Shown here in pieces: positions 8,996 to 63,549 of a stretch of DNA of 64,000 bases (positions within the stretch are counted from its first letter, which is position 1; each line of letters begins with the position of its first letter). The notes under the pieces are model-generated. The model did not search any database. It was not told the DNA's origin and saw only the letters and a list, made by a program, of their open reading frames with translations. The stretch spans positions 62,001 through 126,000 of the forward strand of contig JASJAO010000001.1 in assembly GCA_030066975.1 (NCBI GenBank), read 5' to 3'. The stretch is from Henriciella sp. (GTDB taxonomy: Bacteria; Pseudomonadota; Alphaproteobacteria; Caulobacterales; Hyphomonadaceae). Position numbers and translations under genes: made by a program.

Positions 8996-9019
8996 ATGTT
9001 CCAATTCAGGAGGATATGC

Positions 9020-9847: not shown

Positions 9848-9848
9848 A

Positions 9849-12710: not shown

Positions 12711-13522
12711 TCATTCTGCAGCAAACATCAGGCACCGACCCGAAACAGGCGTTCGATCTGTCAGACCGCGGTCTGTTGCTGGCCGATGGGGTGTTCAGCA
12801 CGGCGCTCGTAACCCATGGCAAAATGATGTTTCGCGAGGCTCATCTTGATCGGCTCTGTCATGACGCCGCCGCGCTTGAAATCCACATTGAGCGAGACCG
12901 TATCGAAGCAACGCTCGACGAGCTGTTTGAGGGCAGGCCGAGCGGTGCGCTGCGCGTGACGATCACTCGCGGTCCGGGTGGGCGGGGGCTTGCAGGTGGG
13001 GAGCAGGCACCAACGCTGATGGCCCGTTTGTCTGACTATGACACCAGCCGCATCGGACAGCCGGTCAAGCTGGCCCTTAGCACGTTGACGCGCGATCCGG
13101 GATCGATCACGGCACGACATAAGACCCTGTCTTACACCGATAACGTGCTTGCGGTGCGACGCGCCGCCAAAGCAGGTGCAGACGATGCCCTCCTGCTCAA
13201 TCCAACTGGCACAGTCGCCTGTGCCGCGTCCGCCAATCTCTTCGCGCGGTTTGGGACGACTCTGGTCACACCGCCCGTCGAAGACGGGGCCTTACCCGGA
13301 ATTGTCCGCCACTTCATTCTGGAACAGGCTCAGAGTGCCGGTTTCGAAGCGGAAGTCCGGAGCTTATCGCTTCAGACCCTTCGATCTGCGGATCAGCTGT
13401 TCGTCACCAACAGTCTGCGCTGGATCGCGCCTGTGGTTGAGTTCGATGGGACCCGGTTTGACCCCTCGCCACTCGACGCCCTGAATGAGCCGCTTCAACG
13501 TGCTCAGCGAGGTGACTTATGA
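12707..13522 (+). CDS. pabC: aminodeoxychorismate lyase (class IV PLP enzyme)
   Basis: A 271-residue fold-type IV PLP enzyme. The PLP lysine is in ARHKTLSYTDNV (about residue 138), and SDRGLLLADGVFST at the N-terminus is the usual start of the family. PabC releases pyruvate from aminodeoxychorismate to give p-aminobenzoate. Branched-chain aminotransferases share the fold, but the operon position supports PabC. It overlaps pabA and folP by four bases each. Confidence 0.9.
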   Translation: MIILQQTSGTDPKQAFDLSDRGLLLADGVFSTALVTHGKMMFREAHLDRLCHDAAALEIHIERDRIEATLDELFEGRPSGALRVTITRGPGGRGLAGGEQAPTLMARLSDYDTSRIGQPVKLALSTLTRDPGSITARHKTLSYTDNVLAVRRAAKAGADDALLLNPTGTVACAASANLFARFGTTLVTPPVEDGALPGIVRHFILEQAQSAGFEAEVRSLSLQTLRSADQLFVTNSLRWIAPVVEFDGTRFDPSPLDALNEPLQRAQRGDL

Positions 13523-24418: not shown

Positions 24419-24479
24419 ATTGATATCCGATTTTTAGCCCACCGGACTAAAAATTTCGCCGCGCGAACTGGATATCAAT
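24419..24479. repeat. two-hairpin palindromic repeat behind lepA
   Basis: An outer 10-bp perfect inverted repeat (ATTGATATCC at 24419-24428, GGATATCAAT at 24470-24479) encloses an inner stem ATTTTTAG/CTAAAAAT with loop CCCACCGGA, followed by a small TTCGC-CGC-GCGAA hairpin. Layout matches the elements at 50998-51058 and 63322-63361, though the sequence is more diverged. It overlaps the lepA stop and may terminate both convergent transcripts. Confidence 0.65.
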
Positions 24480-47030: not shown

Positions 47031-47163
47031 GGGGGTCCTCCTCAGGAAATCTTGAGTTTTTGTCGGCGCTTGGCGCTCTTTATTAAAACTCAAGCTAGGC
47101 AAAACTTTTCCGGCGTCTAGTGGTAGGGCATAGGAAGACCAGAAAATTGCAGAGGAAACGAAA

Positions 47164-48474
47164 ATGACCCAAGGCTTCTCCACCCGCGCGCTGCATGCTG
47201 GCGCAGCCCCCGACCCGGTCACGGGCTCACGTGCGCAGCCGATCCACCAGACCACGAGCTTCGTGTTCAAGGATGCCGATCACGCCGCGAAACTGTTCGC
47301 GCTGCAGGAATTTGGCGATATCTATACGCGTATCGGCAACCCCACAGTAAGCGCACTGGAGGCGCGGATTGCCGACTTGGAAGGCGGCACAATGGGGCTC
47401 GGCGTCGGCTCCGGCCATGCCGCGCAGCTGTTGGCGTTTCATGTCCTGATGGAGCCCGGCACCAAGATCGTCGCGGCCAAGCAGCTTTATGGCGGCTCGA
47501 TCAACCAACTGTCACATGCGTTCAAGAAGTTCGGCTGGGCGGTTGAGTTTGTCGATGTGAACGATCTTGCCGCCGTGGAAGCGGCGATGGATGAGAGCGT
47601 CCGCGTGGTGTTTACTGAAAGCCTCGCCAATCCGGGCGGCATTGTTACAGACATGGCGGCGATCGCAGACATCGCGCACCGTCACGGTGTGCCCTATATG
47701 GTCGATAATACGATGGCCTCACCCTATCTCTGCCAGCCGCTGAGCCATGGCGCGGACATTGTGGTCCACTCTCTCACCAAGTTCATTGGGGGGCATGGCA
47801 ACTCGATTGGCGGCATAATCATTGATGGCGGCAAGTTTGACTGGAAAGCCAACGCGGCCAAGTTCCCGACGCTGACGACGCCGCAAAGCTATTATAATGA
47901 TCTGGTCTTCGCTGAGGGTTTTGGTGCCTTGCCACTCGGTCCTGACGGAGCCGAGGTTGATATCGCCTTTGCGATCGCCGCGCGCGCCTTCAGTCTACGC
48001 GATCTCGGCCCGGCTTTGTCACCCTTCAATGCGTTTATGATCATGACGGGATGCGAGACGCTGCCGCTGCGCATGGACAAGCATTGCCACAATGCCAATG
48101 CGGTGGCGGAATATCTGTCGGGTCATGATGCGGTCAGCTGGGTGCGCTATGCTGGCCTGCCGGGTGACAGCCATCACGCGCTGGCGCAAAAATATTGTCC
48201 GAAGGGCGCTGGTGCAGTGTTCACGTTTGGCCTGAAAGGGGGTCATGCGGCGGGGGTCAAACTGGTCGAGAGCGTTACTCTGTTCAGCCACCTGGCGAAT
48301 ATCGGTGACACCAAATCACTGATCATTCACCCGTCCTCGACGACCCATAGTCAGCTTACCGACGATCAGAAAACGCAGGCCGGGGCCGCGCCCGATACCG
48401 TCCGCGTCTCCGTCGGGATTGAGGATGCGGCGGATATTATCGCCGATCTTGATCAGGCTTTGGCAAGCCTCTGA
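47164..48474 (+). CDS. metY: O-acetylhomoserine sulfhydrylase (Cys/Met metabolism PLP enzyme)
   Basis: A 436-residue PLP enzyme. The N-terminus FSTRALHAGAAPDPVTGSRA and IYTRIGNPTVSALEARIA are typical of MetY, and the PLP lysine is in VVHSLTKFIGGHGNSIGG near residue 206. It makes homocysteine from O-acetylhomoserine and sulfide. The length favours MetY over the shorter MetB/MetZ. No SAM riboswitch was recognised in the 130-base leader. Confidence 0.9.
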   Translation: MTQGFSTRALHAGAAPDPVTGSRAQPIHQTTSFVFKDADHAAKLFALQEFGDIYTRIGNPTVSALEARIADLEGGTMGLGVGSGHAAQLLAFHVLMEPGTKIVAAKQLYGGSINQLSHAFKKFGWAVEFVDVNDLAAVEAAMDESVRVVFTESLANPGGIVTDMAAIADIAHRHGVPYMVDNTMASPYLCQPLSHGADIVVHSLTKFIGGHGNSIGGIIIDGGKFDWKANAAKFPTLTTPQSYYNDLVFAEGFGALPLGPDGAEVDIAFAIAARAFSLRDLGPALSPFNAFMIMTGCETLPLRMDKHCHNANAVAEYLSGHDAVSWVRYAGLPGDSHHALAQKYCPKGAGAVFTFGLKGGHAAGVKLVESVTLFSHLANIGDTKSLIIHPSSTTHSQLTDDQKTQAGAAPDTVRVSVGIEDAADIIADLDQALASL

Positions 48475-48483
48475 TCGGCCGCG

Positions 48484-49329
48484 TCAGGCAAGGTCAAAGC
48501 GTTTCCAGAAAATCCTGTCGACCACCCGTTTCGGCAGGAGCATGGGCAGCGTGAAATTGGTCAGCTTGTTGGGCACCGGGGCATAGCGCGCTTTCGGCCT
48601 GGCGGTCGTCAGCGCGCGCTCAATCGTCTTGGCGATCACCTCTGGGTCGAGCCCGTCGCGGCCGCCATCCAGCATGACCTGACTGAACGCCTCAATCGAT
48701 TTGGCCCAGCGTGTATTGGCATAAGGGGTCGACTTGTTGGCGTCTTCGGCTTTGTCCCAGATCGGCGTGCGCACCGAGCCCGGGCCAATCGCGATGGCGT
48801 CAATGCCATAAACCACCAGTTCCCGGCGCAGACTGTCCGTCACGCTCTCCACGGCATGTTTGGTCGCGGTATAGGCGCCAAGGAAGGGCGACGCCAATCG
48901 GCCGCCAACACTGGTAATATTGATGATCCGACCGGGTTTGCCCGCTCTTGAGGAGTCCATACCCAGCAAGGGCAGAAAAGCCTGCGTGGTTTCGAGCAGT
49001 CCGAACACATTCACGTCAAAATGGGCCTTGAATTCGTCCAGGGGTTGTAGCGCCAGAGGCCCCATATTGGCGATCCCGGCATTGTTCACGAGCCCGTCCA
49101 GCATGGACCCGTCCAGAGCCGCACTGACGGTTTCAACAGCCTCACGGACCTGATCGGGATCAGCAACGTCGAGCATGAGCGGCGTAATATTCTCATGCGC
49201 CTGATCAAGAATGTCCGCATCGCTTTGTTTGCGCACGCCGGCAAACACGTGCCAGCCCTTTGCAGCGAGGTAGTCGGTGGCAGCGCGGCCAATGCCAGTT
49301 GAGGCGCCGGTGATCACAATGGTTTTCAT
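48484..49329 (-). CDS. short-chain dehydrogenase/reductase
   Basis: A 281-residue classical SDR. Cofactor motif GASTGIG at residues 7-13, NNAGIANMG near 90, catalytic Ser in NITSVGG and YTATK near 153-157. The C-terminal part is basic. Substrate unknown. Confidence 0.9.
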   Translation of the reverse strand: MKTIVITGASTGIGRAATDYLAAKGWHVFAGVRKQSDADILDQAHENITPLMLDVADPDQVREAVETVSAALDGSMLDGLVNNAGIANMGPLALQPLDEFKAHFDVNVFGLLETTQAFLPLLGMDSSRAGKPGRIINITSVGGRLASPFLGAYTATKHAVESVTDSLRRELVVYGIDAIAIGPGSVRTPIWDKAEDANKSTPYANTRWAKSIEAFSQVMLDGGRDGLDPEVIAKTIERALTTARPKARYAPVPNKLTNFTLPMLLPKRVVDRIFWKRFDLA

Positions 49330-49377
49330 TTCAAATTTCCTATCTTAACTCGTATACGAAACAACTGACGCTTTGGT

Positions 49378-49887
49378 TCAGGTCTCGTCTACGCCTCCCT
49401 TGATCACACGCAGTTTTGGCGGTGACTTTGCCACGGTTTTTGTCTCTGCGCTTGTGTCTGACGGGGTGTCGGCCGCACCATCAAGCAGGTCCCGCCCGCT
49501 CACCAATTGCGGCGACGAGCGCTTGGGCGGGACCGGAGCGGGGGTGTCCGCCTCAAGGTCGTCATTGAGTTGGCGTGTGTTGCTCGGCCGGGTCTTTCGC
49601 CCCAGGGATTTCTTCGGTTTGAAGCCGCTTTTAGCCTTGCCGCGGGCCTTTTTGTCTATCTCGCGCAACTTGATTGACTGCAGCGCTGACAGGGCTTCGT
49701 CACTGCCGCCTTTTTCCGGATCATTGAAGGCCGAGCCATAGGTCTCGATCCGCTCTTCGACCTCTTCCAGGAATTGCTTTTCCCAATCGGACAGGGGCGG
49801 CCCGAGCCCCTGTTCGGCGAGGGCGGCCGCCTTGCGCAATTTTCGAAGCGCTTTTCGTTTCTTTCGTTCGTCAACGTCCCGGGGCAT
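49378..49887 (-). CDS. hypothetical basic/disordered protein
   Basis: A 169-residue protein I do not recognise. The N-terminal third is charged and helical (ERKKRKALRKLRKAAALAEQG); the rest is Lys/Pro/Ser-rich and probably disordered. It is just downstream of gapR on the same strand with a nine-base gap, so they are likely co-transcribed. Confidence 0.6.
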   Translation of the reverse strand: MPRDVDERKKRKALRKLRKAAALAEQGLGPPLSDWEKQFLEEVEERIETYGSAFNDPEKGGSDEALSALQSIKLREIDKKARGKAKSGFKPKKSLGRKTRPSNTRQLNDDLEADTPAPVPPKRSSPQLVSGRDLLDGAADTPSDTSAETKTVAKSPPKLRVIKGGVDET

Positions 49888-49896
49888 TACGCCAGA

Positions 49897-50160
49897 CTAG
49901 TCGAGTTCGCCAAGCGCGTCCAAGTAGACTTCCAAAAGAGCTTCCTGTTCCTGGCGTTCCTGGCGATCGACCTTGCGCAGGCGGACCACGGTGCGCAGGG
50001 CCTTGGTGTCATAACCAACCGCTTTTGCCTCGCCATAGACCTCTTTGATCTGCTCCGCGATTTCCTTTTTCTCTTCCTCGAGCCGCTCAATGCGTTCGAC
50101 GATGAGGCGCAGCCGGTCTTTGGCGGCATCGGTCAGGTTGTCGTTGGGCGCATCATCCAT
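49897..50160 (-). CDS. gapR: GapR-like nucleoid-associated protein (DUF2312)
   Basis: An 87-residue helical protein matching DUF2312: [40 protein letters not shown] and [20 protein letters not shown]. In Caulobacter GapR clamps overtwisted DNA ahead of replication and transcription forks. Its presence supports an alphaproteobacterial host. A cytoplasmic, probably tetrameric coiled coil. Confidence 0.9.
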
Positions 50161-50319
50161 GGGTCTTGCCTCTTGTCTTGGTCGCTGTATCGGATGGGGG
50201 CGTCCTAAAGCGGATTGTCGGGCGGTCCAAGCGCTATCTCACACAGATCGCAGCTGGCTGACAAAGAGGTGATGCAGGTGTGAGTCGCCGAACCCGCAGA
50301 AGCGCCCTATCTAGGCGCC

Positions 50320-50850
50320 ATGACCCAGATGAAACTCACGGACCTCAGCCGCCGCCGACTGCTCACCCTTGCCCCAGTCGCCCTGCTCGCCGCCGCCTGC
50401 AGCCCCGGCAACAGCCGAAACGCCGCCTATGCCGATATCAGCGAAGATGCCTTTGCCGACAGCGAGTGGCGCCAGCTCACCGAGTCAGACTGGAGAGAAC
50501 GCCTCAGCAAACAGGCCTTCTATGTGTTGCGCGAGGAAGGCACCGAGCGGGCGTTTACCTCACCGCTGAACGATGAAAAGCGCGTCGGGACCTATCATTG
50601 CGCGGGGTGTGACCTGCCACTGTTCGACAGCGCGACCAAATATGACAGCGGCACGGGCTGGCCGAGCTTCTATGATGTACGGCCGGGCGCGGTGAACACC
50701 AAGCCGGACAATAAGCTCTGGATGACGCGGACTGAATATCACTGCGCGCGCTGCGGCGGCCATCAGGGCCATGTGTTCGGCGACGGCCCGGAACCGACCG
50801 GCCTGCGCTATTGCAACAATGGGGTCGCGCTGACGTTTCGGGTGACCTGA
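50320..50850 (+). CDS. msrB: peptide methionine sulfoxide reductase MsrB (lipoprotein)
   Basis: A 176-residue enzyme. The N-terminus has twin arginines and a lipobox, SRRRLLTLAPVALLAAACSPG, so export may use Tat. Zinc cysteines are in CAGCDLPLF and CARCGGHQGHVF; the catalytic Cys is in RYCNNGVAL. It reduces the R-form of methionine sulfoxide and complements the exported MsrA. Confidence 0.93.
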   Translation: MTQMKLTDLSRRRLLTLAPVALLAAACSPGNSRNAAYADISEDAFADSEWRQLTESDWRERLSKQAFYVLREEGTERAFTSPLNDEKRVGTYHCAGCDLPLFDSATKYDSGTGWPSFYDVRPGAVNTKPDNKLWMTRTEYHCARCGGHQGHVFGDGPEPTGLRYCNNGVALTFRVT

Positions 50851-50871
50851 GGGGTAGTCTGGGGTGTTTGG

Positions 50872-51058
50872 TTGAGCGGAGCTCAATCCGATTCACGCAG
50901 CCTTGAGCGCATTCCATGTGAGCGCGACAGCGCGATACGGGAACACAAAAGACTCATTCATTTCCTGATCACGATCCAGGACAGCGGCTGCCGCCGCATT
51001 CATTTCCTATTTTTGATCCACTGGATCAAAAATTTTGCGAAGCAAACCGGAAATGAAT
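50872..51058. repeat. two-hairpin repeat cluster at the left island junction
   Basis: The segment starts with the hairpin TTGAGC-GGA-GCTCAA (50872-50886). It then shares blocks with 63205-63361, e.g. ACGCAGCC, TTGAGCGC and AGCGGCTGCCGCCGCATTCA. It ends with an outer 10-bp inverted repeat (ATTCATTTCC 50998-51007, GGAAATGAAT 51049-51058), inner stem TTTTTGATCC-ACT-GGATCAAAAA and small TTTGC-GAA-GCAAA hairpin. It probably terminated both msrB and the pre-insertion tRNA-Leu. Confidence 0.75.
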
Positions 51059-51084
51059 GGTGCCCAGAAGAGGACTCGAACCTC
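51058..51084 (-). repeat. left attachment site (tRNA-Leu 3' end remnant)
   Basis: 27 bases identical to the last 27 of the tRNA-Leu gene at 63023-63049, in the same orientation. Similarity stops at 51085, so only an att-type fragment is present. The sequence to its left has the same hairpin arrangement as the region left of tRNA-Val. Confidence 0.82.
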
Positions 51085-51599
51085 TACACTATATCCCCGC
51101 AATTATTGCATTTAGGGAGCGAAACGGCACCGTCACGGAAGAGATGACGCAAAGCACCTAGTATAAACCACCACCAGCTAGTACTCAGCACTTGGCTATA
51201 GAGCACCCGCACCAAGAACCAATTTGCCCGTGACCTTCGTACCGCCTTATGGGCTGGAGACGGCATGAACACCGTTATGAATCAACCATCGATCCTAACT
51301 TTATAGTTGCGCCAGTCAGATCACGCAGGCCAGATAAGATCTCATTTTTGGCGAGACTTGTGGGTCGAGACTAAAACTCAAATTGTCATAATCTAAGCGC
51401 CCATTTTACCTGAATACCCATCATCGAACGGGGACACAGAAAGATCGCATGAATTTATTACTTCAATGAATATGAAAATCTCAGTTTTTTTCTATATTTT
51501 TAAAAATGTAATGAATTTCTGATCATTAAATTTTTCATCTATTGAGATTGAATCAAAATAGTTGAATGAGTTCTCCATTATATTTCGATGGAGGATGTA
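51085..51599. other. non-coding left end of island and RHS promoter region
   Basis: About 515 bases with no convincing gene. The left part is mixed in composition; from 51400 on it is very A+T-rich, as expected for an acquired promoter region. GGAGG at 51590-51594 is the ribosome-binding site for the RHS gene. No integrase remnant was recognised. Confidence 0.5.
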
Positions 51600-54500
51600 A
51601 TGTCTGTATTCAGGCGTGTTGCGCCGCTTGCGGCGATCACTTTTGCTTTGTCTTTTTTTGGTGGCGCCGCAGCCACCGCACAGTCGGGCTCGTCGTCGAT
51701 CGAAATAGAATATCTCGAACGCCAGAATGTCGATGAGCGGCTGCAGGTGGATGAGGTCGGCCTGCTCGGCGAAGCGATAGACATGAATACCGGCACGCTG
51801 AGCTTTGAACATGTGGATGTCTCCTTGCCGGGGAACTCCGACCTTGAAGTCGCCATTCGGCGCTCGCGTGATGGCTCCTATCCATTCCCGCATCTCGACA
51901 GTACGGCGACCCCAAGCTCTCAGCAGATCTCCAATAGCTTTTCCGATTGGAAGCTGGAGGTGCCCACCATCTCCATGATCTGGGCCAGCGACTTCATGAC
52001 CAACAGCGATAATCTCTGTCAACAGAGCTATGCCTCTGGAGCGAGTTGGGCTGCGCCTTTTGGTGGGCCGGGCGGCGGGTTCAATCTTGACCCAGAAAAT
52101 CCGCCCGTTGCCATCTTTGCCGGGCAGGAGTTTTCCAATGGAATGGATCTGACCATTCCCGGGCACGGCACGCAAAAGGTGCTGCACGCGCCGAAAGGCG
52201 TGAACTGGCCGGCAGGCACCATCCGAGTGACTAAGAATTATTGGGCGCTCAAATGTGGTCCGGCGGACAATGGTGCCGATGGGTTTATCGCGATCGCGCC
52301 GAATGGTGACCAGTATAAATTCGACAAATACTTGCTGCGCAATGAAGTTGCTATGGCGGTTTCTGCACAAAGCAATTCAGGCCACAGTCACGGTGTCATG
52401 GGCCGCGTTCGGGTCACGCTGCAAGCCAGCGAAGTGACCGATGTGCACGGCAACTGGGTGAAGTATGATTACAACTCAGATGGCTGGGTCACCAAAATCC
52501 ACAGCAATGACGGCCGGGTCATCGACATTAACCGTAACAGCTCCAACCTGATCACCAGCATCATCGCCAATGGACGTACTTGGACTTACACCTACAAGAC
52601 GCTGAGCTATGGAACGTTCCTCGACAAGGTCACACTGCCAGATGGTCGGTATTGGGAGTTTGATATCGAGGAGTTCGGCCAGGGCAAACCTAGCTCCCGC
52701 TATGGTTGCCCCTTTTACAGTTTTGATATCTCGCTCAAGCACCCGAATGGTGTCACTGGCGAGTTCGATTTTACCGAGACCAAGCATATCAAAGGCTATA
52801 ACGGGCCGTTCAGCAATGATGGTGAACAAACCAATTGCTCTGGCAACAATGCCCAGCCGCTCCGCTATTTTCGTGCCTATTCGGTGACCAAGAAAAAACT
52901 GACCGCGCCGGGCACGCCAACGGCAGAATGGACCTATGCCTATTCCGGCTATCCGCACACCGGCTACCATCCCGATCCCGTGCCGAGCACCAAATGGGGT
53001 GAGGTTACCGACCCGCTTGGCCATCGCCGGCGTGAGATCTACCACTCCACCGGCGCGCTTGAGGGCCTGCTGAAAGAGTCCATTCTCTATGCCAATGGTA
53101 CGTCTCAGATCCAGAAAACCGAGTATGACTATGTCACCGAGGCCGCCGTGGGCGAAAACTGGCTGTACAATGAGAACCCGGAAAAGCTGAACAATCCTCG
53201 CCACCGGATTGAGCGTGTGATCACGCAAGACAGTGAAACCTACACCACTGATTTTGCCTACAATTCCAACATGGCGAGCAGCGCTTACAGTTTTGGCAAC
53301 CCGACATTGGTGACCGAAGAGAGCAGCGTGACCACCGGCTCACGCACCCAGAACACGACCTATTACCACTCTCTGTCAAAATGGATCCTGGGCCTGCCGC
53401 AAGTGATCACGCGTAATGGGAAGGAATTTGAGCGTCACAGCTATAACAGCAACGGCCAACTGCTGAACACCAAGACGTTTGGCTCTTCCAGCCCGACCTC
53501 AAGCTATACCTATCATAGCAGTGGACGCCTGGCCTCGGCCACCAACGCTCTGGGCGATACGACCAGCTTTACCAATTTCAAACGCGGCATCCCGCGCAAC
53601 ATCACTCTGCGCGATGGCGGCACGCTCTCTCGTGTCGTTGACGATAATGGCTGGGTGACGAGCGAAACCAATCCGCGCGGCGTCACGTTTGGCTTCAGCT
53701 ATAACAATATGGGCTGGCGCACCTTGGTGAACCGCCCGGGCAGCTGGGCCGATACAACAATCAGCTATACCACCAGTGCCAGCGGCATCACGGCGACCTC
53801 AACCCGGGGCAATAGCCGGTCCATCATCACCTATGACAGCTATACGCGACCGAAACTGATCCAGGAGATTGATCTGACAGGGCATTCGAGCTCGGTCTAT
53901 AACAAGACGACTTATGATGCCTTGGGTCAGGTCACCTTCACCTCCCTGCCGTCCAATTCCAGCAACCCAACCGCGGGCACGAACACCACCTATGACGCGC
54001 TCGGTCGGGTGACCCAAACCGCAGAGACCATGGCACCCTTTGCGACCATGTCGACGCAGTACAAACCAGACAACGAAGTCTGGGTCACGGACCCAGCAAA
54101 TGCGACAACAAAAACGCGGTATCAGGCCTTCGGTGCCCCGGCGACGGAAGAGCCCGTCTGGGTTCAAGACGCCACCGGCACGATCACGACGATGGTCTAC
54201 GACGACTTTGGTAATATCGAGCACTTGAACCAGTCGAGCGGCTTGAATGGCTACAATGTCAGCGCGGATCGCTATTTCTGGTACGACAATCGCCTGCGCC
54301 TCTGCCGCCACCGCGCCCCGGAATTCGGCGACGAACTCTTCGCCTATGATGCGGCCGATCAGATGATTTCCGCGTCCCGGGCCGAGGCTGCTGGGTCAAA
54401 CTGCGCTGCGCCGTCGAGCAGTATTCGCACGTCCTACACATATGATCCCATGGGGCGGCAGACCTTGATCGACTTTCCAGCAGGCACCGATGACATCACG

Positions 54501-56321
54501 AAAACCTATGACGCCAATGGGAGCCTTAAAACGGTCAACCGTGGCGCAACAGCCTGGACATATTGGTACAATGAGCTCGACGATCTGAGCAAAGAGCAAT
54601 TACAAGTTCAAATCGTCAAGAATCGCATCTATGCCCTGACACATGACTACAATTCGACAGGTCATCGAGATTCAATGACCTTGACCACGCTTCTGGGAGA
54701 CGTTGTTGCTAACTATAACCCAGATGGTTTTGGCCAGCCTCGTAGCCTGCAATTCGATGGTCAAAACTTGGTATCGAACGTCACTTATCATCCGAATGGA
54801 ATGGTAGAGGCCGCCGACTATGCGAATGGCAAGAACTACTCCCAAACACTCAATGCTAGGCAGCTCCCAATTGAAACTATCGTAGATGGAACAGGGGGCA
54901 AAGTTGTTCACAAGCTGTATACGTATGATGCTCGTGCAAAACTAATCACCGCTGCCGACAGCGTATTGAGCAGCCGTTCACAACAATACGGATACGATGC
55001 ACGCGGTCGTCTAGTTTCGGCCTCTGGCCCATGGGGCAGCGGTAGTTTCAAGTATGATGGGCTTGAGAATTTGCGCGAGAAGAAGCTCGGCAGTCGTACC
55101 GTTGAACTGAACTATAGTAACAGCTTGAACCGTCTGACCAATTTCCGCGATACCGCCGAACAGAATGCTTGGCAGACGATTTTCTATGATAGTCGTGGTA
55201 ATGTCGTCGACAACGGCACCTTGGCACATGGTGGTGTGGACCTAACTTATGATCACGCCAATCAGCCAACTTCTGTTACCGGGACAGGCATCAACAACAC
55301 GTACACCTATGACGGCAATCTGAAACGCGTGAAGACGGTGCTTAACGGACCGCAAACATACTGGACGTATTCACGCCTGTCAGGCAAGCCCGCCATCGCC
55401 CATCGGATTGTCGGCGTCATGACCTACTATCTTGATGTCGGTGGCGCTCAAATACGCGTGAAGAATACCGGTATAGACTACACTCATGTCGACCATTTAG
55501 GGTCGCCCATCGCGGCAACGGATTCAAGTGGAAATGTGCTGTGGGAGGAACACTATACCCCGTTTGGAGAAAAGCAGACCTCCGCGGCGGCGAATGACAA
55601 TGATATCGGCTATACCGGCCATGTCATGGATGAGGCGTCGGGTCTGACCTATATGCAGGCGCGGTACTATGATCCGGTGATCGGCCGCTTCCTCTCCACC
55701 GACCCCATCGGCTACCAGGACCAACTGAACCTGTATTCATACGTGCACAATGATCCAGTGAACTTGGTGGATCCGACCGGGATGCAAGCGCAAGCCGCTG
55801 AATTTGACGATGAGCATGAAAGCTCAAGGCACGATAAGGGAACTTCTGATACACTGGATGCGCTCGGGGCTACAGCGGAAGTGACCGCTACGGTCACAGG
55901 TACGAGTATGGAAGCCTTGGCAACGATGGATGAGACTGTGCGATCAGCTCGGGTTGCAGGAGAAGTTGTGAAAACCGCTGGGTCGGAGCTTGTTTCGAAG
56001 ACTGGCACTGGATTGAACTTGGCTGCGAAAGCAAGTGCGATTTCAAATTCAGATACTCCAGGGATTGAGGCTGTTGCACAAGCTGTAGGATATATTGGCG
56101 GAGTTGTGACAGCGGCCGCCGTACTGCGCGGCAGCGCTAACGGTCCAGGAGCTATTGCGGCAGGAGCTGGCGCCGACTTGACCCTGACCGAAGGAACACG
56201 CGCTACCCTTCAGGCAGCGGCAAAAGTAGCGCGTACCACCAATCGTGCAGCTGTAAAAGCCGAAAGGTCTCTTAACGGTGCATTGATGAACTACTTGAGC
56301 TGGAGGGCATTACCGCGATAA
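51600..56321 (+). CDS. RHS/YD-repeat polymorphic toxin-type protein with Sec signal
   Basis: A 1573-residue protein. ATG 51600 with GGAGG just upstream gives a Sec signal [20 protein letters not shown] ending AAATAQ. Residues about 270-1300 are YD/RHS repeats (e.g. [27 protein letters not shown]). The RHS core follows: YTPFGEKQ near 1320, [18 protein letters not shown], and DPTGM at 1391-1395. The last 178 residues are a variable tip I do not recognise, rich in Ala/Gly/Thr. Known RHS proteins encapsulate a C-terminal toxin; here the Sec signal rather than a PAAR domain is unusual. The next gene is a likely immunity partner. Confidence 0.85.
55548..55882 (+). repeat. 335-bp direct repeat, copy 1 (end of RHS core)
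   Basis: Nearly identical to 57295-57629. It spans the end of the RHS core and the first 37 residues past DPTGM. Similarity ends at the codon after ATAEV, where the two C-terminal tips diverge completely. Confidence 0.85.
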
Positions 56322-56343
56322 AAGTGACCTTTGGGAGGCAGAC

Positions 56344-56859
56344 ATGATTATTCGGGTCAGCGACATTTTTCTTCGCAGAAAATGGGCACTATATCTGCTC
56401 TTATGCCCGGTGTTTCTTTACGCCCTCTTCACCTCGATCAACAATATCTTTGGACTAGATCTGACGGGCGGATGGATGGGATCAAGAGACCCAGTAGGCG
56501 CCGGTTACGTGGTAATTCTCGGGTCTCCTTTTTACTTCGCTGGAGTGATTAACGGTTTGCGGGAAACCTTTGTCTCCGCGCCTAAGTATCTATTAGTAAC
56601 ACCAGAGACAATCGAGGTACATCAGCGTCCTAAAGCGCAGATAAGAAGAGAGAAAATCTCAAGTGTTGCAATCAACAATCAGGGCGAAAGACGCATACTC
56701 GAAATCAGGTTACAAAATGAACCTCCACAAGAAATCCGTTTGGATTTTTTGGATTGCTCTGAACATCAGCTCCTCAGAATGCTCGAAGACTCAGGATATC
56801 CGATATTGGATCGCACTTTGAGTGAGCCGCTGGCGGCTCAAGAAGAGAAGCGGATTTAG
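56344..56859 (+). CDS. membrane protein, candidate immunity for the RHS tip
   Basis: A 171-residue protein 22 bases after the RHS stop, preceded by GGGAGG. Two membrane segments (about 14-32, ALYLLLCPVFLYALF; and 50-68, GYVVILGSPFYFAGV) are followed by a soluble domain from residue 80: KYLLVTPETIEVHQRPKAQ, then beta-rich sequence. The layout suggests a bacterial PH-like domain, but no family is certain. Gene order right after a polymorphic toxin is the usual place for immunity. That role is inferred. Confidence 0.65.
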   Translation: MIIRVSDIFLRRKWALYLLLCPVFLYALFTSINNIFGLDLTGGWMGSRDPVGAGYVVILGSPFYFAGVINGLRETFVSAPKYLLVTPETIEVHQRPKAQIRREKISSVAINNQGERRILEIRLQNEPPQEIRLDFLDCSEHQLLRMLEDSGYPILDRTLSEPLAAQEEKRI

Positions 56860-57023
56860 CGTGGGCTGAGGTGCCTCTTCGTCCGGAGGCGTTCTGTACC
56901 AAGTAGATCGTCCGTATAAGGCGATAAGGTAGCTCCCTAAGTTAGGCCCCCTGCCACCAACTCTTCATTACCAACTGGAAGATGTCATTCATAGCCGAGA
57001 CGTTGCGACCGGCGTCGAGCAAA

Positions 57024-57187
57024 CCGCCGAGGCCACAACAACACGTATACCTATGACGGCAATTTGAAGCGGGTGAAGACGGTTCAGGATAGCAAGACGA
57101 CCTATTGGGTCTATTCCAAACTGACGGGCACGCCGCTCTATTCGAAGAACATTACGGACAATGAGGAAACGCTTTATATGTCCGGCG
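57024..57187 (+). repeat. 164-bp repeat shared with third cassette, copy 1
   Basis: Begins CCGCCGAGGCCACAACAACA and matches 58861-59024 with few changes. It marks the left junction of the displaced cassette. Confidence 0.8.
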
Positions 57188-57294
57188 GCGGGGCACAGGT
57201 CCGCTTGATCAACGGCACGCCTGAATACACCCATCTCGACCATCAGGGCAGCCCGCAATTGGCGACCAACACGACAGGCGGTGTCCTGTGGCGG

Positions 57295-57629
57295 GAACAC
57301 TATACCCCGTTTGGCGAGAAGCAGACCTCTGCGGCGGCGAATGACAATGATATCGGCTATACCGGCCATGTCATGGATGAGGCGTCAGGGCTCACCTATA
57401 TGCAGGCGCGGTATTATGATCCGGTAATCGGCCGCTTCCTCTCCACCGACCCCATCGGCTACCAGGACCAGCTTAATCTGTATGCCTATGTCCATAATGA
57501 TCCGGTGAATCATACGGACCCGACGGGGATGCAAGCGCAAGCCGCTGAATTTGACGATGAGCATGAAAGCTCAAGACGCGATAAGGGAACTTCTGATACA
57601 CTGGATGCGCTGGGAGCTACAGCGGAAGT
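57295..57629 (+). repeat. 335-bp direct repeat, copy 2 (orphan cassette)
   Basis: Matches 55548-55882 in length and nearly all bases. It would allow homologous exchange of the expressed RHS tip, deleting about 1.75 kb. Confidence 0.85.
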
Positions 57630-58131
57630 AGCAGCCAAAACGTTGGAAGACGTAAACAACGCAGGTGGCGGGCCAGATATATCCGGTACAATTAAGTTAT
57701 TAGAGGTGGCTGGCACTACTGCTACGGTGGCTGGTGAATTACACGATACAACGACTGATATAAGTAATGGTGGCTCGCCGACTGAAGCGATCGTAGACAA
57801 CGGAATAGATTTGAGCGGTAATCTTGCAGGAGCAGCAATTGGGGCTCGAGTTCCTGGCCCTCCGCTGTTTAAAGCTGTAGCTGCAATTGCTGGCGGAGCA
57901 ATGGGTGAGCAAGGCATGTCAATGCTACAGGGGGCGGTGGAAGGAGCAGCTGGCGACGTCTACCAAGATCTGGAGCGTGGTTATCCGCGTGCCGAAGAGG
58001 TATTTTCAAACCCTCGATCTTGGTCACACGGATGTCCGTGTTAGAAATCTACCTTTAAGGAAAGACCGATGGACATCGTCTGATATCTTTGTTTTCAGTA
58101 AATTGTATCAAATGAAATAGGAATTTCATAA

Positions 58132-58617
58132 GTGGCTCAAATTTCAATTGAGAATGAAATAAAAAACAAAATCGACGCGGGTCAAAAAATATGCGGCCTT
58201 AGAGAGAATGTCTCTTTGGCAATCCTTAGAACTTTACCGACCGTCGTCATACTTCTTTCTGTAACTTTCTTGTTCTACGAGTATGGTTTTATTAGCGGAA
58301 TGTGGTCAGATGAAGTTCCTCGTCTGTATGAATTAGTAATAATAATCACTCCAATACTTTTATATTTTCTTTTTGAGAGATTTTTATTAATATACCTGAG
58401 GGGTAAATACTTCTATGTAGGGAATAACTACGTGATGATAAATAGGGGATTATACTTCGAAAAAATTTTTAATGAAGAAATAGAAGACTTAGACGTTATA
58501 TATGAAAAAAAAAAGATAATTTTGATAATAAAAACACATGAAAAAGAAATTATCAAGAAGTACTCAGGATGGAAATTATCTGTTTCAGAAATTTTATTTG
58601 AGAATGATAATGCATAA
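58132..58617 (+). CDS. A+T-rich membrane protein, candidate immunity for the orphan tip
   Basis: A 161-residue protein beginning with GTG at 58132. Two membrane segments (about 31-50, ILRTLPTVVILLSVTFLF; and 66-88, LVIIITPILLYFLFERFLLI) precede a Lys/Glu/Ile-rich domain starting KYFYVGNNYVMINRG. The arrangement copies that of the protein at 56344, although the sequences share little. Strong A+T bias separates it from all neighbours. It lies directly after the orphan RHS tip. Confidence 0.65.
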   Translation: MAQISIENEIKNKIDAGQKICGLRENVSLAILRTLPTVVILLSVTFLFYEYGFISGMWSDEVPRLYELVIIITPILLYFLFERFLLIYLRGKYFYVGNNYVMINRGLYFEKIFNEEIEDLDVIYEKKKIILIIKTHEKEIIKKYSGWKLSVSEILFENDNA

Positions 58618-58745
58618 TCTCAAACACGTTAATAGGTAAGGTTTCGAGACTGGGCGTTACTTTGTGATGCGAGGGGCGGGTCTTGAGCCACCGCTAAATT
58701 GAGCGGAGTATTTCGGATGCTTGCGGTAACGACTAGGGTAATTTT

Positions 58746-58859
58746 GTGCATGAACAAGACGAAGTGGCAGCAGGGCTCAAGCCAGCCGGGATTTCTGCGC
58801 AGGCCCATGCTGTCGGTGCTCTGCTGTTTGGCACCGCCGCTTATGACCGCGCGGGGTAA
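58746..58859 (+). pseudogene. 37-codon remnant of an RHS-tip or other protein
   Basis: A short frame, GTG to TAA, encodes VAAGLKPAGISAQAHAVGAL and ends FGTAAYDRAG. It abuts the third RHS remnant. Origin unknown; probably the tail of a lost cassette. Confidence 0.35.
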
Positions 58860-58860
58860 G

Positions 58861-59024
58861 CCGCCGAGGCCACAACAACACCTACACCTATGACGGCAAT
58901 TTGAAGCGGGTGAAGACGGTTCAGGATGGCAAGACGACCTATTGGGTCTATTCCATGCTGACGGGCACGCCGCTCCATTTAAATGAACATCACGGACAAT
59001 GAGGAAACCCTCCATATGTCCGGC
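58861..59024 (+). pseudogene. third, degraded RHS cassette fragment
   Basis: A near copy of 57024-57187. It encodes [18 protein letters not shown]-like sequence but is then broken: an insertion/substitution near 58977 brings stops in frame, and the core is missing. It shows the island once held a third cassette. Confidence 0.75.
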
Positions 59025-59209
59025 AACAGGTTGATCGATGGGCGGGGTTCACCGGTCTGCGATGGAGGGGAAAGCAAGGGCTTGCGCAACCACGGTGTTT
59101 CGTAAGGCATCGTGCTACGGTCACACGTCGCTGGTTCAGTGAGCTGTTCTGCAAGTGGACACGTCGGCACCCGCGAAAGCACCCCAAAACCTCCTGATCA
59201 AGCCGTGGA
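59025..59209. other. inter-cassette sequence without a gene
   Basis: About 185 bases between the RHS fragment and the restriction enzyme stop. A short open tail reading WFSELFCKWTRRHPRKHPK ends at 59197 and may be the end of a lost gene. Nothing else was recognised. Confidence 0.35.
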
Positions 59210-62200
59210 TCAGGCAGCGAACTTGTCGTCACCGGTTTGCCGAACATGTCCAAGTGCCGTCAGGCTTTCGAGAATGTCTCGGACTGTCTTGCGGGGTGCG
59301 CGTTTGAAGTGCCGGGCGACCGTTTCGGTGTCACTTTCACCCAGATCTACGAGCGTGTTTCGAACAAAAGCGACTTGCAGCGGCATGGCTTTCGGCCATT
59401 CGTAAATCTCGGTGCTGACTTCAACCTCTGCAAGGTCCAGTTTCCCGGTATCCTTCGCCATCGCGGTCTCGCCGGTGGGGTTCTGGTAGTCGGGGCGGAG
59501 CCAGCGGATGTGGCCGCGTGCCTCTTCCTCGGCGCGTTCCTTGTTGAGGGCGACGAGGCGGAAGAGGATGTCTTCGTCGCTGAGATCCACGGGCCAGCCA
59601 TAAGCTTCGGCGACGGCGGCGTCGATCTGGTCGTGCAGGTCTTTCAGGATGCCGATCAGGCCCTGGTCGTAAATCTCGCGGTCCTTGCCCCCGATGGCCT
59701 CTCCAGCGCGGAGCTTTTCCAGCACGTTATACATTTGGGTGAGGGTCAGCTTGGGGTGGGTGGCCTGCTGGCGCTTGCGATGGGCGTCGAGCTCTTCGCC
59801 CAAGACGCGGAGACGCGTGCGCTGGTCGTTAGTGAGGTCGGGGAAGGGAAATGGATTGAAGCAGGTGCTATGTGTATAAACAGGATCATTGCCCACACCT
59901 TGCCAGTTCCCACGCGACAGTGCGAAGGCGATGTGCACCCTGCTGGAAAGCACTGACAACTGCCAAGCCTCTTCCAAGGCGACCACTCGAATCTTTTGAT
60001 CGGCCAATACGGCTTTGTCTAAGAAGTGAAAGATCCTATGCTTGGCGGTCTCTGTGGTTGCTATGTACCTTTCGGTTCCAGCCAGCGCTTTCCTCATTTC
60101 TTTTCTTGGCTCGGCAAAAATCCACCAGTAATCGCGGTAGCTCTTTCGATTGTTCGTATCTCGGTCGGGCTTCACTCGGTCCCAAAGCAGTTGAAAGATT
60201 GCAGGATATTTGCTGCGGAGTTCGTCCTCACTAAGTCCAAAACAGTCAATGATTTTGAGGTTTCGGGGTTGGCCAACTAGGTCTTTCCCGTTTGCGTAAT
60301 CAAAGATCAGCGAAGCAACCTTCTGATCTTGAGCCAGGCTTTCAGCTTCTTCTTTGGAGAGAACGAACCCCATCCCCCACGGCATTACTCCTTTATGGCC
60401 GAGGCCAGAATTTGACAGAAGGGCAACCGTCGAAGAGACATCCGCGCCGATCTGCAAGTTTGCAAAAATCTTTCCGACCTGATGATCGAATGTCACTTGC
60501 CGTCCTTCGGCTTCAGTTGTTTCCTTACTCTCTGTTGCCACAACTTGAAGTCTTCCTGCGCGATTGCCCGCCGCACCAACGGTCATGGCGATCCGCACGG
60601 CAGCCCCATAGAGCGTGTCGACCCAAGGGTGATCCGGGATCGCAAAGAGCAGCGAGAGCGGCTTTTTCGGGTCGTTCAGATGCGGCTCCAACACCCGGCG
60701 GTTGAAGGTCTGGCGCAGAGAGTTCGTGGTGATCAGGCCAAAGCGACGGGTGCCCTTGCCCGTCTTGGCATTATAGGCCCGTGCCGCGAGCGCTGCCTTT
60801 TCCCACCAAAACATGACCAGATCTGCGCTTTGCGGCATCTTGGGGTAGGCTTTCCACAGTGCCTCCACATAGCCATCGCCCAGACTGTCCCGCAGGCGCG
60901 AGGCCCCGATGAAAGGCGGGTTGCCGACGATGAAATCGGATTGGGGCCATACCGTCGCCTTGGGCTCCTTATAGTCATAGACCTGCACGCGCGCGTCCGG
61001 GTCCGGCACCTCTTCCCCCGTCACGGGATGGCGCATGGTGGTTACGCCGTCCCAGCGGGTGACGGGCGTGCCGTTCTGGTCTATGCGCGGCGTCCGATCC
61101 GCCCATTCCAGAACTGCATCGCCTTGGCGGATATTCTTGAAGTCGCGCAGCACGGGCTCGGACGGGGCGGCGTTGCCATAGGTGCGGAAATGCCATTGCA
61201 GATAGCCGATCCACAGCACCAGTTCGGCCACGTTGGCGGCCCAGGGGTTCAGCTCGATGCCCAGAAACTGGTGCGGATCAACTGTGATGGATTGCGTTTG
61301 CCTGTCGCCGAGACCGTCCAAGAACGAGATCACTTCTCCTTCTAATCGTTTCATGCCCTCCAGCGCCACGTATAGGAAGTTGCCAGATCCACAGGCCGGG
61401 TCGAGCACGCGGATATTGCAGAGCTTCGCCAAGAACTCGCGCACCGTGTCTATGGCGTCGTCCAGCTTGCCGTCCTCTTGCAATGTGATTGCGGCAGCTT
61501 GCACGTCCATCCAATCCCCGCGTAGCGGCTCCATTATCGTCGGTGTGACCAATCTCTCGACGTAAGCGCGGGGTGTGAAATGCGCGCCCAGTTTGTGCCG
61601 ATCTTTTGCTGATAGCGCGCGTTCGAGAAGTGTTCCGAAAATGGCGGGTTCGACTTCGCGCCAGTCTTGTTCGGCAGCGCGGATCAGCAAGCCGAGCTGC
61701 AGACTATTTAGGGGGAGCGCCGTCGACTCAGCAAACAATCCGCCATTGAAGCGGAGGAGGTCTCGTCGCAGCACAGGTGAGAAGCCGCCTTTGTCCATCC
61801 CCTGCCACAACGCCTCAAGGGTTGGAGCGGCGTTTTCAGGCTGACCCCGCATATCGATCAGAAGGTTGGTGAAGCTATCGGCCGGAATCAGATGAACATC
61901 CTCAGCGAACATGGTGAACAAGCACCGCATCAGGAAGCGGGCCGTTACTTCGGGTGCGTGGCCTTGCTCATGGAAAGAGCGCCCCAAGGCCGCCAGCTCG
62001 TCTGAAATTTGCCGCGTCACACGAGCTGTTTTCGCCGTCGGATCTAGCGAAGTGGGGTCCATCCACACGGCGTGCAGCAGGTCTAGCGTTTCAGGATCGT
62101 GCAAATCCTCGATATCTAATCGGTAGCGTTGCCTGTCAGGAAAAGGCGTGTAGTTCTTTCCCGAGCCGGAAAAGTCTGCGTAGAGATCGATCACATGGCC

Positions 62201-62659
62201 GATGTCGACGACGATCAGGAAAGGTGGCCATCCTTCCGAGATATCCAATGCCCGGGCGTAAGCATAAGCTTGACCCTTGGCTTTCAGCATCGCGGCGGTC
62301 CATGACGGGGTGCCACGCACGGCCATGCCGGCTGCCTGTTTTGTCAAAGGCTCACCGGTGATCAGTTCATGCTGACGCGGATCGGCAATGCGGGCTTTCT
62401 GCTCGCTTCCTTGTTTCGCCTCCAAAACGAAACACCCTCGTCGATAAAGATCGATCCGTCCCTTGGAAGTCTTTCCATTATTATGTTTGAACGTGACAGC
62501 TCGCTCGAACGAATATTCCTCAAGGGTGCCACCCTTGTTGGGGTCATGGGGGCGTGGAACATCCAACAAGTCGCAGAGTTCGTTGAGGAAGGATTGGGAG
62601 TTGCCCAATTCGTTCCCATCGCGACCTTTCCAAGTTTCTATGAATTTTTGAGCGTCCAT
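59210..62659 (-). CDS. Type IIL/IIG (MmeI-like) restriction-modification enzyme
   Basis: A single polypeptide of about 1149 residues (MDAQKFIETWKGRDG; ATG 62659, with 62692 also open). An N-terminal PD-(D/E)xK-like nuclease shows D70 with E80-A-K82 in GRIDLYRRGCFVLEAKQG. A helical linker follows. The methyltransferase has DPACGSGNFLYVAL at 420 (AdoMet motif I) and GNPPFIGASRL at 580 (catalytic NPPF, N6-adenine type). A target-recognition region follows to about 980. The last 70 residues look like a winged helix (ETVARHFKRAPRKTVRDIL). Such enzymes cut near, and methylate, one asymmetric site. Confidence 0.85.
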   Translation of the reverse strand: MDAQKFIETWKGRDGNELGNSQSFLNELCDLLDVPRPHDPNKGGTLEEYSFERAVTFKHNNGKTSKGRIDLYRRGCFVLEAKQGSEQKARIADPRQHELITGEPLTKQAAGMAVRGTPSWTAAMLKAKGQAYAYARALDISEGWPPFLIVVDIGHVIDLYADFSGSGKNYTPFPDRQRYRLDIEDLHDPETLDLLHAVWMDPTSLDPTAKTARVTRQISDELAALGRSFHEQGHAPEVTARFLMRCLFTMFAEDVHLIPADSFTNLLIDMRGQPENAAPTLEALWQGMDKGGFSPVLRRDLLRFNGGLFAESTALPLNSLQLGLLIRAAEQDWREVEPAIFGTLLERALSAKDRHKLGAHFTPRAYVERLVTPTIMEPLRGDWMDVQAAAITLQEDGKLDDAIDTVREFLAKLCNIRVLDPACGSGNFLYVALEGMKRLEGEVISFLDGLGDRQTQSITVDPHQFLGIELNPWAANVAELVLWIGYLQWHFRTYGNAAPSEPVLRDFKNIRQGDAVLEWADRTPRIDQNGTPVTRWDGVTTMRHPVTGEEVPDPDARVQVYDYKEPKATVWPQSDFIVGNPPFIGASRLRDSLGDGYVEALWKAYPKMPQSADLVMFWWEKAALAARAYNAKTGKGTRRFGLITTNSLRQTFNRRVLEPHLNDPKKPLSLLFAIPDHPWVDTLYGAAVRIAMTVGAAGNRAGRLQVVATESKETTEAEGRQVTFDHQVGKIFANLQIGADVSSTVALLSNSGLGHKGVMPWGMGFVLSKEEAESLAQDQKVASLIFDYANGKDLVGQPRNLKIIDCFGLSEDELRSKYPAIFQLLWDRVKPDRDTNNRKSYRDYWWIFAEPRKEMRKALAGTERYIATTETAKHRIFHFLDKAVLADQKIRVVALEEAWQLSVLSSRVHIAFALSRGNWQGVGNDPVYTHSTCFNPFPFPDLTNDQRTRLRVLGEELDAHRKRQQATHPKLTLTQMYNVLEKLRAGEAIGGKDREIYDQGLIGILKDLHDQIDAAVAEAYGWPVDLSDEDILFRLVALNKERAEEEARGHIRWLRPDYQNPTGETAMAKDTGKLDLAEVEVSTEIYEWPKAMPLQVAFVRNTLVDLGESDTETVARHFKRAPRKTVRDILESLTALGHVRQTGDDKFAA

Positions 62660-62746
62660 GCTCGGGCGACCCCATCTCGCGACAACGACCATTCACTCAG
62701 CGTTGCTGGTAAAGGAAGCGCTAAGGACTTGAGGCTGTCAATCAGC
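62660..62746. other. promoter region of the restriction enzyme
   Basis: Short leader between the restriction enzyme start and the remnant upstream. No regulator gene is adjacent. Confidence 0.35.
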
Positions 62747-62953
62747 TCAGTCCAACGAACCCGTCAAAACCTGCTCAATACCCATCACCGCATCCCAATT
62801 CAGTGTTTCTAACCGACGATAGGTGCGCCAATGCATGCCTTTGGGTTTGCGCGGCCAAAGATTGGCAATGCTGGGCCCTGCTCTTACTCGCTTATGAGGA
62901 CTCTCGGGAGCATCCTTGCGGGCATGACCGCACTGCGACGAACCTCTAGTACG
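62747..62953 (-). pseudogene. 68-codon 3' remnant of an unknown gene
   Basis: An open frame from the stop at 62747 back to a TAA at 62954, without a usable start. It encodes CGHARKDAPESPHKRVRAG, NLWPRKPKGMHWRTYRRLE and ends VLTGSLD. The WPRKPKGMHWRTYRRL block looks conserved-protein-like and may be the tail of a gene truncated on island entry. Family not recognised. Confidence 0.4.
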
Positions 62954-63022
62954 TTAAAAGCCTGTTTTTTCCAATTAGTTCAATGATATTTGGACAAAAT
63001 AAAACCACTCTGAAGTGTGATT

Positions 63023-63049
63023 TGGTGCCCAGAAGAGGACTCGAACCTC
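63023..63049 (-). repeat. right attachment site within tRNA-Leu
   Basis: Identical to 51058-51084. Being inside the tRNA 3' end, it is the usual crossover site of tyrosine integrases. Confidence 0.82.
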
Positions 63050-63109
63050 CACGTCCATAAGGACACTACGACCTGAACGTAGCGCGTCTACCAATTCCGC
63101 CATCTGGGC
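63023..63109 (-). tRNA. tRNA-Leu (anticodon CAG)
   Basis: An 87-base gene with encoded CCA. The acceptor stem is GCCCAGA/TCTGGGC, the anticodon stem-loop CTACG-TTCAGGT-CGTAG gives CAG, and a long variable arm (GTGTCCTTATGGACGT) and the GGTTCGAGTCC T-loop are present. Type II shape and anticodon identify leucine. The 3' 27 bases recur at 51058. Confidence 0.96.
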
Positions 63110-63361: not shown

Positions 63362-63474
63362 CCCGAACGCAGCCCTGAGAGCGATCCATCGCGGAGTGAA
63401 ACGAAGCGGGTGATCAAACAAAAGTTCATTTCCCGCTGAAAAAGGTCCCCCGGACCTTTTTCAGGTCGGGAAAT
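63362..63474. repeat. partial repeat and hairpin downstream of tRNA-Val
   Basis: Starts with ACGCAGCCCTGAGAGCGATC-type sequence related to the block at 50894. It ends with a perfect 13-bp stem CTGAAAAAGGTCC-CCC-GGACCTTTTTCAG (63437-63465) inside CATTTCCCG/CGGGAAATG. It is likely the transcription terminator of tRNA-Val. Confidence 0.7.
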
Positions 63475-63549
63475 GGTGGTCGATACTAGGTTCGAACTAG
63501 TGACCCCTGCAATGTCAATGCAGTGCTCTACCGCTGAGCTAATCGACCG
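63475..63549 (-). tRNA. tRNA-Val (anticodon GAC)
   Basis: A 75-base gene with encoded CCA. Acceptor GGTCGAT/ATCGACC, D arm TAGCTCAGCGGTAGAGCA, anticodon stem-loop CTGCA-TTGACAT-TGCAG giving GAC, T arm CTAGTTCGAACCTAG. All stems pair. Confidence 0.97.

Follow-up and report, generated by a model that had tools for sequence, protein, structure and literature searches.

A probable decayed island at tRNA-Leu(CAG) carrying Rhs and MmeI-like genes in Henriciella sp.

The window analysed here is a stretch of 64,000 nucleotides from Henriciella sp. (assembly GCA_030066975.1, contig JASJAO010000001.1, positions 62,001 to 126,000 of the forward strand). Near its right end, accessory DNA with Rhs genes and an MmeI-like type IIG restriction enzyme gene separates an intact tRNA-Leu(CAG) gene from a second copy of its 3′ end. 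This segment is, with good probability, a decayed composite tRNA island, a relic resembling a cis-mobilizable element (CIME), that arose by site-specific integration at tRNA-Leu(CAG). As described in the part of PMC4383910 used here, such integration leaves an intact tRNA gene and a displaced 3′ fragment in the same orientation. Both are present in the window with 12 kb of accessory DNA between them, and together they form the signature on which our reading rests. A tRNA trailer structure abutting the displaced copy, and integrases at the same tRNA gene in at least six congeners, back it further.

The two repeats are identical over 27 bp (TGGTGCCCAGAAGAGGACTCGAACCTC), lie on the same strand at 51058-51084 and 63023-63049, and span the CCA end of tRNA-Leu(CAG) into its T arm. 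The exact, equally oriented copy claimed in a preliminary description of this DNA is thus confirmed with its coordinates, and so is the abrupt loss of similarity beyond it: the match reaches 30 bp with one mismatch (97%) and then stops. Searched at up to three mismatches, the 27-mer occurs at exactly two places in the genome (3.57 Mb in 24 contigs), with none for a backwards-read control; the 26-mer has two matches in the window and a mean of 0.00 over 100 shuffles. The fragment sits downstream of the intact tRNA-Leu in the tRNA's orientation, giving an element length of 11.9 kb, and falls outside conserved protein domains, between msrB and the Rhs gene. Arm-type repeats common to both inner ends of the island amounted to five overlapping or single 8-mers, a chance-like yield. 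The arrangement resembles the tRNA and tmRNA islands of Islander as set out in the portion of PMC4383910 drawn on here, where an intact tDNA is paired with a displaced 3′ fragment on the right side and in the right orientation, within 2-200 kb and outside coding domains. It differs in that no integrase was found in our island, which would therefore not pass the integrase filter of that catalogue. The locus illustrates in detail how a tRNA island would be rejected by any finder that demands an integrase.

Immediately beyond the CCA of the displaced copy, with no base in between, a Y-shaped palindrome begins: a three-way junction in which a 9-bp outer stem surrounds two hairpins. We interpret it as the 3′ flank that tRNA-Leu originally had. 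An outer stem with two hairpins, of different sequence, also follows tRNA-Pro(GGG) in the same genome. Related structures stand directly 3′ of tRNA-Ala(TGC), tRNA-Val(GAC) and tRNA-Val(TAC), a decayed one follows tRNA-Phe, and one follows RNase P RNA. Because the Y-shaped trailer abuts the CCA much as these structures do at intact stable-RNA genes, the junction 51057|51058 looks to us like a true tRNA 3′ boundary. Judged from the sequence, a complete tRNA-Leu seems once to have stopped here, followed by its trailer, until integration displaced the junction; this falls short of proof. The flank of the intact tRNA-Leu(CAG) in one congener, G022, aligns weakly with the trailer; it is the best among the 19 congener flanks compared, and none of 200 shuffles did as well. 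We suggest a trailer structure abutting a tRNA fragment as a marker for tRNA islands that lack an integrase. At gathering thresholds, Rfam returned only tRNAs, rRNAs and RNase P over seven stretches, and no family for the Y-shaped trailer. Palindromes directly after tRNAs or RNase P RNA were seen at L075 ~1502-1560, before L077 1681, before L095 1613, before L008 1549 and at 63429-63473 of the window (L denotes extracted loci, C contigs of this genome and G congeneric genomes). The Y-shaped and hairpin palindromes may constitute a family of stable-RNA trailers in this genome.

We compared 29 genomes of the genus, the present one included, and found the 3′ end of tRNA-Leu(CAG) in 25 of them (24 of the 28 congeners), as a single copy in 23 of the 24. 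A PF00589 integrase gene lies directly 3′ of this tRNA in at least six of those 24 (G002, G004, G005, G008, G024 and G026). The six integrases belong to one family (52-90% identical), and all three that were scanned have Arm-DNA-bind_3 and Phage_int_M domains; we take them to be of the P4 type. A distal repeat of this tRNA end, equally oriented, is present in G004 at a distance of 8.9 kb; 15 of its bases match exactly, and CACCA follows beyond a gap of one base. Hence, given these integrases and the G004 repeat, the 3′ end of tRNA-Leu(CAG) very probably serves as an integration site in the genus.

No recombinase gene was found in the island itself, in line with what had been proposed from the letters of the window alone. 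Pfam showed none among the five named open reading frames (ORFs) of the island, and ten larger overlapping or opposite-strand ORFs in it had no Pfam match. The longest stretch of the island without a named ORF is 592 bp, which leaves no room for an intact integrase. Searching the island by tblastn with 26 proteins (15 integrases or integrase-like proteins and 11 other element proteins) revealed no remnant; the best match (E 0.010) was the tRNA end itself and the next (E 0.018) fell inside the Rhs gene. Relaxase and mob genes were likewise absent from the island, the genome's relaxases being confined to contigs C17 and C12. The tRNA-Leu-specific integrase that the preliminary description would have sought elsewhere in the genome did not emerge in the congener form: a query with the G004 integrase had no match at E 0.01, an empty answer that by itself shows little. 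The genome has eight PF00589 matches, and the five listed comprise two on C1, presumably Xer-like, and one each on C9, C12 and C23. For the latter three genes, no tRNA was present in the surrounding stretches examined, and none matched the congener integrase type.

With its integrase gone, the island would be immobile by itself. The closest named state is the CIME, which, in the part of PMC5704250 used here, keeps both att-like repeats while the integration and transfer genes are absent. Our island agrees in having its two 27-bp repeats, as sequence, in the place of attL and attR and in showing no integration or transfer gene, the former presence of such genes being putative. It differs in having no tandem partner element, and descent from an integrative and conjugative or integrative and mobilizable element is only putative. 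To the extent covered by the parts of PMC4383910 and PMC5704250 at hand, tRNA islands and integrase-less relics are both known kinds.

The genes between the repeats (Table 1) bear out the proposal of conflict and defence content, through matches to Rhs and to an MmeI-type IIG restriction-modification (RM) enzyme. Rhs or RM cargo on islands is a known kind. The MmeI-like protein unites MmeI N, helical spacer, methyltransferase and target-recognition domains in a single chain, and its gene is the tRNA-proximal gene of the island; the remainder consists of Rhs genes. The insertion sequence (IS) remnant, which we assume to be IS3-like, lies 99 bp from the displaced tRNA copy. The lower G+C noted earlier for some of these genes holds for 58000-58750 (~33%) and 51000-51750 (42-44%), against 56-62% left of the island (46000-50999); it does not hold for the MmeI gene, most of which stays close to background apart from a drop to 49%.

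Table 1. Features of the tRNA-Leu(CAG) locus and the island, in window coordinates
Feature	Position	Strand	Basis
Palindromic trailer with a Y-shaped fold (three-way junction), directly adjoining the CCA of the displaced repeat; presumed original tRNA-Leu 3′ flank	50999..51057	-	fold, comparison with intact tRNA and RNase P RNA trailers
Displaced tRNA-Leu(CAG) 3′ end, 27 bp; distal direct repeat	51058..51084	-	sequence match, genome search, shuffles
IS-end remnant of 152 bp; identity 80% to a more complete copy on C11, which encodes a transposase with rve/rve_3 domains	51183..51334	.	sequence match
Rhs/YD-repeat protein, 1577 aa, Rhs-associated core, C-terminal tip ~180 aa	51588..56321	+	domain scan
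Small ORF following the main Rhs gene; without family match, a candidate for immunity solely from its position	56344..56859	+	ORF list, profile scans
Orphan Rhs tip; first 224 aa 69% identical to end of main Rhs core, remainder differs	57064..58044	+	sequence comparison
Low-G+C ORF following the orphan tip; without family match, a candidate for immunity solely from its position	58132..58617	+	ORF list, profile scans
Remains of another Rhs tip, decayed and interrupted by one in-frame stop (C1:120844-120975); self-match 91.6% over 167 bp	58844..58975	+	sequence search
Full-length MmeI-like type IIG restriction enzyme-methyltransferase of 1160 aa; gene start ~330 bp from tRNA 3′ end	59210..62692	-	PDLC03627, 1566 bits
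Intact tRNA-Leu(CAG); its 3′ 27 bp (63023-63049) form the proximal direct repeat	63023..63109	-	ARAGORN
tRNA-Val(GAC), neighbour; own trailer hairpin abuts CCA (63429-63473)	63474..63548	-	ARAGORN, fold

The two kinds of cargo appear to differ in origin. An MmeI-like protein occurs in 8 of the 28 congeners, the best being 37% identical over part of its length, and no close relative of the island gene was found in any of the 28; Rhs matches occur in 11 of the 28, with four long ones at 44-47% identity. On this comparison the MmeI gene seems to have come from outside the genus, so far as sampled, whereas the Rhs type looks at home in it, and the island is best seen as composite. Among plasmid records, ten had a match and none covered most of the query, although pieces of the MmeI gene reached 72-76% DNA identity in two Paracoccus plasmids. 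Phage records held distant MmeI relatives in eight cases. In viral contigs, one locus had an MmeI relative and no relative of Rhs was found. For seven island ORFs, PHROGs gave only unknown-function families, for the two Rhs ORFs and MmeI.

These contents bear on the alternative, raised in the preliminary description, that the element is a satellite, or else a prophage remnant. Some MmeI-bearing tRNA elements elsewhere do carry a DUF3987/primase-like gene, as small autonomous elements may. Satellites are built on core genes for packaging, capsid size and priming; no such gene was found among the named island ORFs, nor any DUF3987/primase-like, phage structural or regulatory family, and the viral contigs yielded the single MmeI relative and nothing for Rhs. 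We therefore consider a satellite or prophage remnant extremely unlikely: the remaining genes lend it no support, and it is the other half of that proposal, a decayed island, that fits. A further parallel is offered by the E. coli cdi islands, which, in the sections of PMC4927057 relied on here, are likewise located at tRNA 3′ ends and hold a polymorphic toxin together with toxin/immunity pairs that have been displaced. They differ in encoding CdiA rather than Rhs, in residing in Gammaproteobacteria, and in orphan arrays that are often accompanied by transposase and integrase genes.

A scan of genomes in the Genome Taxonomy Database (GTDB) with six peptide patterns recovered 56 loci with MmeI homologues (43-67% identical), mostly, by their titles, from what we take to be Rhodobacterales. 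Thirty tRNAs were predicted in these loci, and 28, in 27 loci, were tested, leaving aside an untyped one (L149) and a tRNA-Asp (L171). The tRNA 3′ end faces the MmeI gene in 26 of the 28 (one-sided binomial 1.5e-6, loci taken as independent). It lies within 600 bp of the gene it faces in 13 of the 56 loci, a count without a control. For 7 of the 28 tRNAs, the locus repeats in the same orientation at least 14 bp of the tRNA sequence, extending to one base or less from the 3′ end; the controls gave 0/28 on the opposite strand and 1/1456 in other loci. The exact repeats measure 45 bp (L122), 16 bp (L124), 39 bp (L131), 14 bp (L134), 26 bp (L143), 46 bp (L150) and 45 bp (L162). Among the open-licence literature matches listed, no report of MmeI-type enzymes at tRNA ends was found.

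The integrase lies at the far end in five of the seven repeat-bounded loci, one of them a stump, and near the tRNA in the other two. L131, L150 and L162 share the order tRNA, MmeI, middle genes, integrase on the opposite strand, repeat; in L134 an integrase match stands at the far side, next to the repeat. The stump belongs to L122 (Aliiroseovarius subalbicans, 5744-13401), an MmeI island at tRNA-Arg with 45-bp repeats in which ~30 integrase codons are left, so that integrase loss appears caught part-way in another species. L124 (Pseudoprimorskyibacter insulae) involves the same tRNA as our island, in the order tRNA-Leu(CAG), integrase-like ORF, MmeI, ORF, 16-bp repeat, terminator-like hairpin; its integrase-like ORF has weak Int_N and DUF6538 matches below the cut-off and no PF00589. 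L143 retains just a DUF6538 piece beside the tRNA.

The order of the window, a tRNA 3′ end followed within 600 bp by the start of MmeI, recurs in seven loci (L122, L131, L144, L150, L151, L157 and L162). Four have a far-end integrase and L122 has its stump; L151 and L157, which are cut by a contig end, show none. Our island agrees with these seven in the position and direction of its MmeI gene, and Rhs genes occupy the place of the integrase. L122, L124, L131, L150 and L162 resemble it in carrying an MmeI-like gene at a tRNA 3′ end, bounded by a tRNA-end repeat, but differ in having an integrase at the far end (L131, L150 and L162, with the stump in L122) or an integrase-like ORF by the tRNA (L124), where our island has none and Rhs fills the far part.

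Several observations weigh against integration as the origin of the island. The 28 congeners were searched with the tRNA/cpdR region, msrB and the tRNA 3′ end, and neighbourhoods were examined for part of them; in none was an empty site seen, with 51057 joined to 63023, gene order being scrambled. Of the 24 congeners with the tRNA-Leu end, 15 have it on a different contig from msrB and nine have the two 13 kb to 1.9 Mb apart. The tRNA-Leu gene adjoins lepA in G009 and is 1.3 kb from it in G016; lepA occupies 24475-26289 of the window. At the inner edge of the island, the 24-30 bases that adjoin the intact tRNA resemble the tRNA-Leu 3′ flank of G014 and G023 (equalled by 2 and 0 of 200 shuffles), which would suit a native trailer at that place and which integration would not predict; the same bases resemble the island flank of G004 equally well (0/200 shuffles as good). 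In the stretches examined of the other five integrase-bearing congeners, no distal repeat of at least 13 bp was found. Neither end of the island shows an integrase remnant, so the loss of an integrase is something we infer, and none of the five PF00589 matches listed among the genome's eight lies within the window. Among the MmeI loci, the tRNA-Asp of L171 faces away from the gene (26/29 if counted) and the untyped tRNA of L149 lies inside it. A further copy of the junction adjoins a relaxase gene on contig C17, having been duplicated by some means.

The left-flank hairpins form a genome-wide repeat family (26 matches, the query itself counted), many copies of which abut no stable RNA, so their mere presence proves little. 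The preliminary description had likened the left flank to the hairpin set after tRNA-Val. What survives of this is that the hairpins are real and abut the CCA with a like fold; the bare equation was dropped. In gene order, the G009 neighbours on the msrB side lie mostly on contig C13 in the present genome, which implies a breakpoint at the left end of the island and is proof neither way. The order of lepA, msrB, tRNA-Leu and cpdR is strongly scrambled in the genus (G009, G016, G019 and G028 compared with window 24475-63109).

Two readings without site-specific integration at this site have to be set against these data. In one, tRNA-Leu(CAG) was duplicated and one of the two genes then lost its 5′ part, for instance together with the adjacent IS, so that only a stump is left at 51058; the genes between arrived otherwise. 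Two tRNA-Leu(CAG) genes do occur in G028. The second has the same orientation relative to msrB at a distance of ~13 kb, but the intervening genes are ordinary, its 3′ flank is unrelated and there is no repeat. The closeness of the IS remnant to the copy would suit such a deletion, and the trailer abuts the copy as it would at a complete tRNA. This explanation keeps some weight because of the G014/G023 likeness inside the island together with a congener gene order that shows no empty site. On the other hand, congeners use tRNA-Leu(CAG) as an integration site, homologues of the cargo gene are often in tRNA islands, and a single copy is the rule, in 23 of the 24 congeners that have the tRNA end. 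The copy also ends in the T arm, the crossover of about half of the islands catalogued in the part of PMC4383910 used here (T-stem class). We regard a stump as unlikely.

In the other, the trailer plus tRNA 3′ end would be a mobile or copied unit of its own, RNA- or repeat-driven, and would mark no island end. The second copy on C17 speaks for this: a third, degenerate instance of the tRNA-Leu end, with indels and its trailer, lies at C17:210989-211087 and beyond (L096:14880-14995), 90% identical over 99 bp. Yet the exact copy exists once only, 12 kb downstream of the tRNA, on the expected side and in the expected orientation, and the C17 copy, beside its relaxase gene, may itself be an island end, possibly that of another element. 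We judge a self-copying unit to be very improbable. The degenerate copy is followed by an ORF, presumably MobC-like, the relaxase and a transposase-like ORF.

For the decayed island, we infer the following course, from the integration event through the order of losses to maintenance and remobilisation. An integrative element, inserted site-specifically by a tyrosine recombinase, would have occupied the 3′ end of tRNA-Leu(CAG). Its attachment site would have restored the tRNA gene, pushing the old 3′ end and trailer 12 kb off to 51058. The MmeI-like RM enzyme would be the surviving tRNA-proximal cargo. The integrase would have disappeared from the distal part, where the Rhs gene, the orphan tips and an old IS remnant now stand, possibly through IS-associated deletion or replacement. 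The island has probably been kept because both types of cargo punish its loss, RM by post-segregational attack and Rhs by killing of non-immune siblings. Contact-dependent inhibition is described as stabilising a plasmid in the part of PMC4927057 consulted, a precedent for maintenance by toxin killing. In principle, the island could be excised in trans by an integrase like those at the same tRNA in congeners.

Beyond this locus, we tentatively propose that alphaproteobacteria have a family of compact defence elements, carried at tRNA genes and defined by MmeI-like type IIG enzymes. In these, the restriction gene would be tRNA-proximal, the integrase, mostly at the far end, would be lost repeatedly with the repeats left intact, and addictive cargo (here RM and Rhs) would hold the element until an integrase of the same specificity arrives; this generalisation could well be wrong. 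The tie between MmeI and tRNA 3′ ends, with the part-way loss in L122, makes it testable whether RM and Rhs cargo keep islands after mobility is gone.

Elsewhere in the genome, contig C12 carries Rhs tip fragments 79-97% identical to those of the window (L098:5174-7554). They have a related relaxase as neighbour and lie where an accessory region borders on a gene that we take to be glyQ-like. The same locus contains a TIR-domain protein adjoining a short prokaryotic Argonaute (L098:807-3789; PADLOC pAgo_I and Aga_TIR matches), presumably a SPARTA-like defence pair. A NACHT-domain protein of 893 aa is also encoded in the C12 accessory region (L097:11144-13825).

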